Below are positions 26,418-28,358 of a DNA stretch of 64,000 nucleotides, in pieces (position 1 is the stretch's first letter; each line of letters opens with the position of its first letter). Position numbers and translations under genes: made by a program. Origin of the DNA: Pseudomonadota bacterium (GTDB taxonomy: Bacteria > Pseudomonadota > Gammaproteobacteria > UBA5335); assembly GCA_002862435.1 (NCBI GenBank), contig PKDC01000004.1:23170-87169 (forward strand). Direction: 5' to 3'. The notes below the pieces were generated by a model. It made no database searches. It saw nothing but the letters and a program-made list of their open reading frames with translations, and was not told the origin of the DNA.

Positions 26418-26473
26418 TCCGGAACACCCCTTCCGGATCGCCCTGGAGCCCTGCCCACGCAGGGCTTTTTTTT
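26416..26473 (+). terminator. Tandem hairpins and Rho-independent terminator after rpsT
   Basis: 9-bp hairpin GATCCGGAA/TTCCGGATC (26416-26439) overlapping the stop codon, then AGCCCTGC-CCAC-GCAGGGCT plus T run (26447-26473). Confidence 0.9.
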
Positions 26474-26576: not shown

Positions 26577-26951
26577 ATGACGATTGCTTACTGGTGCGTG
26601 CTCATCGCCGCCATCATCCCCATGCTGATGTCCACGCTGGCCAAGGCCGGCGGCCCCGGCTTCGATAACCACACTGTGCGCGCCTACCTGGATGCGCAGA
26701 CCGGCTGGCGGCAGCGCGCCAACTGGGCGCAGCAGAATGGCTATGAAGCCTTCCCGCCCTTCGCCGCCGCCGTGCTCATCGCCCATCAGGCGGGGGCCGA
26801 TCAGTCCATGGTGGATAACCTGGCCATGGCCTTCATCGTGATTCGCCTGATCTATGGCGCAATCTACATCGCCAACCTGGCGACCCTGCGCAGCCTGGCG
26901 TGGACCGCCGGCTTTGCCTGTGTGGTGGGCTTGTTCGTCGCCGCCACCTGA
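26577..26951 (+). CDS. MAPEG family membrane protein
   Basis: 124 aa; YLDAQTGWRQRANWAQQNGYEAFPPFAAAVLIAHQAG...RLIYGAIYIANLATLRSLAW. Confidence 0.82.
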   Translation: MTIAYWCVLIAAIIPMLMSTLAKAGGPGFDNHTVRAYLDAQTGWRQRANWAQQNGYEAFPPFAAAVLIAHQAGADQSMVDNLAMAFIVIRLIYGAIYIANLATLRSLAWTAGFACVVGLFVAAT

Positions 26952-27010
26952 TCCCGGCACTCCGGCGTGTCACGGCCGGCAGAGTGGTTATTCCGAAAAA
27001 CTCAGGAAGC

Positions 27011-27125
27011 TGCCCGGGGAAGGGCAAGGACGTCGGGAGCCGCGCGCACAGGGACGCGCGAACTCACGTTGTCGAATCAGGCGGATTCATCAACGTGAAC
27101 CCGGAGTCCTGGCCCTTCCCCGGCA
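27011..27125. repeat. Compact palindromic element with nested hairpins in a convergent intergenic region
   Basis: Outer arms TGCCCGGGGAAGGGCAAGGAC (27011-27031) / GTCCTGGCCCTTCCCCGGCA (27106-27125); inner hairpins CGCGCG-N8-CGCGCG (27041-27060) and TCACGTTG...CAACGTGA (27064-27098) with internal GAATC/GATTC. Confidence 0.8.
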
Positions 27126-27140
27126 GGCGGCGACGCGGAT

Positions 27141-28265
27141 TCAATGCACCACCATGTTGTCGCGGTGGATCAGTTCCGGCTCGTCCACATAGCCCAGCAA
27201 CTCCGGGATGCGATTGCTGGGCTGCCCCTGGATGCGCCGACATTCCTCGGCGCTGTAGTTGACCAGGCCGCGCGCCACTTCCACCCCATCCGGCCCACGG
27301 CAGATCACCACGTCGCCGCGCCGGAAATGCCCCTGCACCGCCGTCACGCCCACCGGCAACAGGCTGCGCCCGGCCTCGCGCACCACTCGCACCGCGCCGG
27401 CATCGAGCGTCAATTCGCCATGGGCCTGCAAATGGCTGTTGATCCACTGCTTGCGCGCCGCCAGGGGTTCCCGGGCCGGATGCAACAGGGTGCCGATTGC
27501 GTCCCCACGGGCGATGCGCAGCAGCACGTCAGGATGGCGGCCGTTGGCGATCACCGTCGCCGCGCCGCCCCGCGCCGCCCGGGCCGCGGCGGTGAGCTTG
27601 GTAAACATGCCGCCACGCCCCAGCGCGCCCGGCGTCGGTGTGGCCATGGCCAACAGGGCGGCATCCCCCGCCTGGCCCTCGCTGACCAGTTGGGCGTCCG
27701 GATGATTGCGTGGATCCTGATCGAACAGACCGTCCTGGTCGGTCAGGATCACCATCAATTCAGCCTCGACCAGATTCGCCACCAGCGACGCCAGGCTGTC
27801 GTTGTCGCCAAAGCGCAATTCCTCGGTGCTGACGGTGTCGTTTTCGTTGATGATGGGAATGGTGTCGAGATCAAGCAGGGTCTTGAGGGTGCTGCGGGCG
27901 TTGAGGTGGCGCTGGCGGTCGGTGAGATCGGCATAGCTCAACAGGATCTGGGCGGCATGCAGGCCATGGCGCGCAAATTCGGTTTCATAAGCCTGGATCA
28001 GGCGCATCTGGCCCACCGCGGCGGCGGCCTGGAGCTCATGCAGCGCCTGCGGGCGTTTGGACCAGCCCAGCCGCTCCATGCCGGCGGCCACCGCGCCGGA
28101 GGAAACGAGCGTCACCTGCTTGCCTTGCCGGTGCAATGCGGCCAACTGGGTCGCCCAGGCCGCCAGCGCGCCCTCGTCCAGCCCCTGGCCATTGTTGGTC
28201 ACCAGCGCGCTGCCGACCTTCACCACCCAGCGCCGACTCTGTCCCAGACTATTGCGGTCGTTCAT
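27141..28265 (-). CDS. proB: Glutamate 5-kinase with PUA domain
   Basis: [48 protein letters not shown]-terminal PUA. Confidence 0.96.
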
Positions 28266-28358
28266 CCGCGACTCTCCCCCCACCGCGCCGCCGGACACAT
28301 CCGATCTTGGCACGCGCTGATTTCTTCCGTCATCGTCGGATCTAAGCCTGCGTCAGAT

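Follow-up and report, generated by a model that had tools for sequence, protein, structure and literature searches.

A nested palindrome between convergent proB and MAPEG-family genes, probably an insertion drifting neutrally in two sister species

Within the 64,000-nucleotide stretch of DNA analyzed here (the window), a compact multi-stem palindrome lies between proB and a convergent MAPEG-family gene. The elaborate fold predicted for this element raises the question of whether it is a functional RNA, the 3' end of a neighboring transcript, a copy of a dispersed repeat, or a palindrome that entered or arose at this site and is now decaying.

Fold and setting of the element

The original prediction described a multi-stem palindrome in which an outer stem encloses two inner hairpins, and RNAfold of positions 26990-27140 bore this out. 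The predicted stability was -85.6 kcal/mol (z -7.3) on the plus strand and -80.5 kcal/mol (z -5.5) on the minus strand, far beyond a background of dinucleotide shuffles, none of which (0 of 200 on either strand) folded as well as the native sequence; a fold of 27009-27126 with DNA parameters gave a z score of -8.3. Positions 27010-27126 were predicted by RNAfold to form a three-way junction in which an outer stem of approximately 27 bp surrounds two hairpins, and this fold was obtained for both RNA strands as well as for DNA. The parts of the element are as follows.

27010..27037, plus strand: 5' arm of the outer stem, CTGCCCGGGGAAGGGCAAGGACGTCGGG (fold, inverted-repeat scan and sister comparison)
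27041..27060, plus strand: inner hairpin 1, CGCGCG-CACAGGGA-CGCGCG (fold and sister comparison)
27063..27099, plus strand: inner hairpin 2, (C)TCACGTTG-T-CGAATC-AGGCG-GATTCA-T-CAACGTGA (fold and sister comparison)
27100..27126, plus strand: 3' arm of the outer stem, CCCGGAGTCCTGGCCCTTCCCCGGCAG (fold, inverted-repeat scan and sister comparison)

The stem of hairpin 1 pairs 27041-27046 with 27055-27060 around the loop CACAGGGA, and that of hairpin 2 pairs 27064-27078 with 27084-27098. The outer arms (27010-27037 and 27100-27126) are 88% complementary over 24 nt. The predicted outer stem is thus present, but it is longer than the described arms of about 20 nt and has a second mismatch: in G000 it comprises 25 pairs, interrupted by one bulge and by two 1x1 mismatches. 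Among the non-coding inverted repeats of its length in the window, the element ranks best. A structure scan that was independent of sequence similarity and covered 464 kb of the genome (G000) placed it fourth in stability among 15,390 segments of 130 nt. No plausible gene was found within the element, in agreement with the lack of a coding role claimed for it.

Domain matches confirmed the convergent arrangement of the neighboring genes, between whose stop codons the element occupies a 189-bp spacer; rpsT is located upstream of the MAPEG gene.

26577..26951, plus strand: MAPEG-family gene (PF01124), convergent neighbor (domain match)
27141..28313, minus strand: proB, glutamate 5-kinase (AA_kinase and PUA domains), convergent neighbor (domain match)
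26996..27000, minus strand: TTTTT, 9 nt past the outer stem and too distant for a canonical intrinsic terminator

A position between convergent genes and a strong GC-rich stem are features shared with bidirectional intrinsic terminators. However, the element has no U-tract adjoining its stem on either strand, and its multi-branched structure far exceeds a simple terminator hairpin in size. The minus-strand TTTTT of the original prediction does exist, but its distance from the stem led to its rejection by a terminator scan, and TTTTT is absent on the plus strand. The scan detected no canonical intrinsic terminator at the element on either strand, though the genome does use canonical U-tract terminators, for example after rpsT at 26445-26468.

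Copy number and divergence

A blastn search of its own genome found the element in single copy, the matches being the element, its own arms and two chance pieces of 18-19 nt. Among 56 relatives, the sole homologue was in a sister species of the same genus (G001), where a copy with 89% identity lies in the proB/MAPEG spacer and is orthologous in position; both assemblies are incomplete drafts. A covariance model built from both copies found no further match in 12 relatives or in 369 genomes of the class. DNA searches of these 369 genomes and of 399 genomes of the phylum (overlapping draws with one genome per species), as well as of phages and plasmids, returned only short chance or coding matches. 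The class-wide matches, at E values of about 0.003-0.008, were short, scattered fragments at roughly the level of chance, and the phylum match at 5e-5 was coding DNA in two 6-Mb genomes. The phage search gave no match, exact element patterns were not found in viral contigs, and a plasmid origin was rejected, the best plasmid match being a weak one of 45 bp inside a Mut7-C gene.

The BLASTn check proposed for a multi-copy element therefore gave a single copy in this genome and one orthologue among its relatives, and the idea of a dispersed REP/MITE-like copy, as stated, was not supported. REP sequences are often found between convergent genes (PMC1525189), and the element resembles REP/BIME sequences in being an extragenic palindrome at this favored location; REPs, however, occur in tens to hundreds of copies per genome, and the element does not.

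The convergent order proB-MAPEG-rpsT is also present in two congeners, G002 and G003, whose spacers are shorter (about 96 nt in G002 and 45-48 nt in G003) and unrelated to the element. In G002, proB is divided between the ends of contigs C22 and C37, and its 5' part is not comparable. Because both congeners retain the gene order with unrelated spacers, the element appears to have been gained in the shared lineage of G000 and G001, and loss elsewhere seems less likely. Inspection by eye revealed no direct repeat in the flanks, CTCAGGAAG and GCGGCGACG, and the spacers of G002 and G003 could not be aligned by eye to reveal an empty site.

The two sister copies differ at 13 of 118 sites (11%), compared with 37 of 314 other non-coding sites (12%; Fisher p = 1) and 36 of 858 third codon positions (4%; p = 0.005). 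Of the 48 pairs in the shared structure, 37 are invariant, 3 have undergone one-sided G-U shifts, 7 are unpaired in one sister and 1 is gapped. Compensatory changes on both sides of a pair were found at none of the 48, with only two sequences comparable. The original prediction had set against itself a single-copy sequence with no stem covariation, and this is largely what we observed. By part of the structure, 2 of the 6 pairs of hairpin 1 are broken in G001, 3 of the 15 ancestral pairs of hairpin 2 are broken in one or other sister, and the outer 3' arm of G000 has lost one G relative to G001; one base of the structure is bulged out.

We built a best-pairing ancestor from the two sequences by taking the better-pairing letter at each difference, a choice that favors a decay model, and its predicted stability was -96.8 kcal/mol. 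Six random substitutions brought this ancestor to -81 +/- 6 kcal/mol, against -85.7 observed with the deleted G restored, and seven brought it to -79 +/- 6.5, against -75.9 observed. Because 6-7 random substitutions per lineage reproduce both present stabilities, the data are explained in this simulation by the neutral decay of an initially near-perfect palindrome, without selection, at a sample of two sequences that gives little power for weak structural constraint or for selection on total stability.

Origin of the palindrome and competing explanations

We consider it probable that a nested palindrome was inserted, or arose, in the common ancestor of the two sister species and is now drifting neutrally. 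A palindrome of approximately 117 bp, with outer arms of about 28 bp and two hairpins, would have entered or arisen in the proB/MAPEG spacer after the split from the other congeners, and would since have drifted at the neutral rate with progressive loss of base pairs. We infer insertion as a MITE-like palindromic element from an unsampled source, rather than local construction by a process such as template switching. On the sequence comparisons, the best fit seems to be an insertion of this type with no other copies in the searched genomes. The same sister pair, and neither G002 nor G003, carries another mobile palindromic family (F1, described below).

QMITE2 of Coxiella burnetii has terminal repeats of 23-29 bp and a core of 113-145 bp, and MITE transcripts have been described as folding into stable stem-loops (PMC10969869). 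The element has in common with such bacterial MITEs its non-coding character, intergenic location, long terminal inverted repeats and stable predicted transcript fold. In contrast to them, it is single copy and GC-rich rather than AT-rich, with no direct repeats found and no related IS ends identified. The long terminal inverted repeats and lack of coding capacity are as expected of a MITE, but copies at different sites were not found in this genome or in the sampled genomes, and for a MITE it is unusual that neither a further copy nor a source element was found. We have not classed the element as a MITE because it did not prove to be multi-copy and its flanks gave no clear duplication.

When transcribed, the element would still fold, and a passive effect would be expected: the 3' end of the proB or MAPEG mRNA might be shielded from 3'-to-5' exonucleases or, alternatively, read-through between the convergent genes might be hindered. 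Any such role at mRNA 3' ends would be at most incidental, as the comparison gave no sign of selection. A functional version of this idea, which we regard as the main but less likely alternative, is a bidirectional 3'-end element for proB and MAPEG, in which any strong hairpin would suffice and both sequence and pairs would be free to drift; it might be a Rho-assisted or U-tract-poor terminator combined with an mRNA-stabilizing hairpin. The convergent spacer and the TTTTT beyond the stem on the proB side are consistent with it, as are total stabilities under -75 kcal/mol in both sisters and the fold of the unrelated G003 spacer, which beats shuffles (z -3.1). Nevertheless, for the G002 spacer the margin over shuffles is small (z -1.25), no intrinsic terminator was detected on either strand at the element in a genome that uses U-tract terminators, and the loss of stability fits the neutral simulation.

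It is unlikely that the palindrome was made locally, through template switching or fold-back errors of replication, with no mobile insertion. Such an origin would agree with the single copy, with a target-site duplication not being seen, with no homologue being found beyond the orthologue, and with the 9-bp hairpin already at this site in the G003 spacer, but two inner hairpins within a nearly perfect 28-bp outer stem would need several independent events.

Explanations based on a specific RNA fare less well. It is very unlikely that the element is a lineage-specific, multi-branched proB 3'-end RNA that would act via its overall stability, folding on both strands and having a hairpin whose GGA loop could bind a protein of the CsrA type; under such a model, no pairwise covariation would be expected between just two species. 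Even less likely is a conserved structured small RNA or an RNA derived from the proB 3' untranslated region. The high stability on both strands is in its favor, as is the hairpin 1 loop, CAGGGACG, which is unchanged in the sister species and resembles CsrA/RsmA sites. However, the element shows no covariation or excess conservation and is absent from the congeners, hairpins with ANGGAY loops are not enriched genome-wide in G000, and the search of Rfam, proposed as a check for an ncRNA family, yielded no family at its gathering score, the best sub-threshold match being a spurious one to mir-629. The suggestion that the element could be the 3' end or a 3'UTR-derived RNA of proB was likewise not supported, with no adjoining U-tract, excess conservation, compensatory change or gathering-level Rfam match.

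Finally, it is extremely improbable that the element is a diverged F1 member, even though both occur in the same genome pair and share an 11-mer, CAGGGACGCGC, in a central hairpin: the F1 covariance model gives the element 7.4 bits with many broken pairs, against 167-189 bits for the genuine copies of the two sisters, the alignment score was attained by 9-28% of structure-preserving shuffles, and homology via the common CAGGGACG loop was not significant.

The F1 repeat family and implications

F1 surfaced during the structure scan of G000 and is unrelated to the element. It is approximately 160 bp long and consists of five hairpins in succession.

L102:16123-16281 (contig C1): F1 copy (structure scan)
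L114:8838-8996 (contig C13): F1 copy (structure scan)
Contigs C40, C2 and C3: further F1 copies

There are five full copies in G000, three matches in G001 and none in G002 or G003. Of 274 genomes sampled from the class, 18 contain F1, and its model matched 132 and 87 times in two single-contig gammaproteobacterial genomes. The consensus has 59 pairs, 25 of them with compensatory changes across 14 copies, and the ends, (C/T)TA(G/A)-GGAA...TTCC-(C/T)TA(G/A), resemble a 4-bp target duplication. The hairpin 2 loop CAGGGAYG, AAAACCACGCTTTT in hairpin 4 and TCCAGGATGGA in hairpin 5 are largely kept, and the stems vary. Hairpin 2 (columns 36-55 of the F1 alignment) has a GGA-containing loop in the forms AGGGAC, AGGGAT, AGGGAG and AAGGAG on a stem whose changes are compensated, and such a loop resembles CsrA/RsmA binding sites. 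A CsrA/RsmA-type protein might thus, in principle, be titrated by F1 transcripts at high copy number. Rfam searches of four F1-bearing loci gave no match at the gathering score, and a search of open-access text for short F1 sequence strings found none.

Separately, contig C15 of G000 contains two long inverted repeats, both near-perfect but of different types (GTTCGTGGTGAGCCTGTCGAACCACG and TGTAGGAGCGACGTAAGTCGCGACC), at L116:12204-12310 and L116:4226-4325. Its GC content of 0.676 is the highest among the sampled stretches, and the listed contamination of the assembly is 6.19%; this contig may be foreign or misbinned.

F1 is the more interesting lead of the two palindromic sequences carried by the sister pair. 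The element in the proB/MAPEG spacer illustrates that even a z score below -7 for a predicted fold does not, on its own, constitute evidence of a functional RNA, and that a single sister-species comparison is enough to reveal the neutral-decay pattern of a young palindrome.
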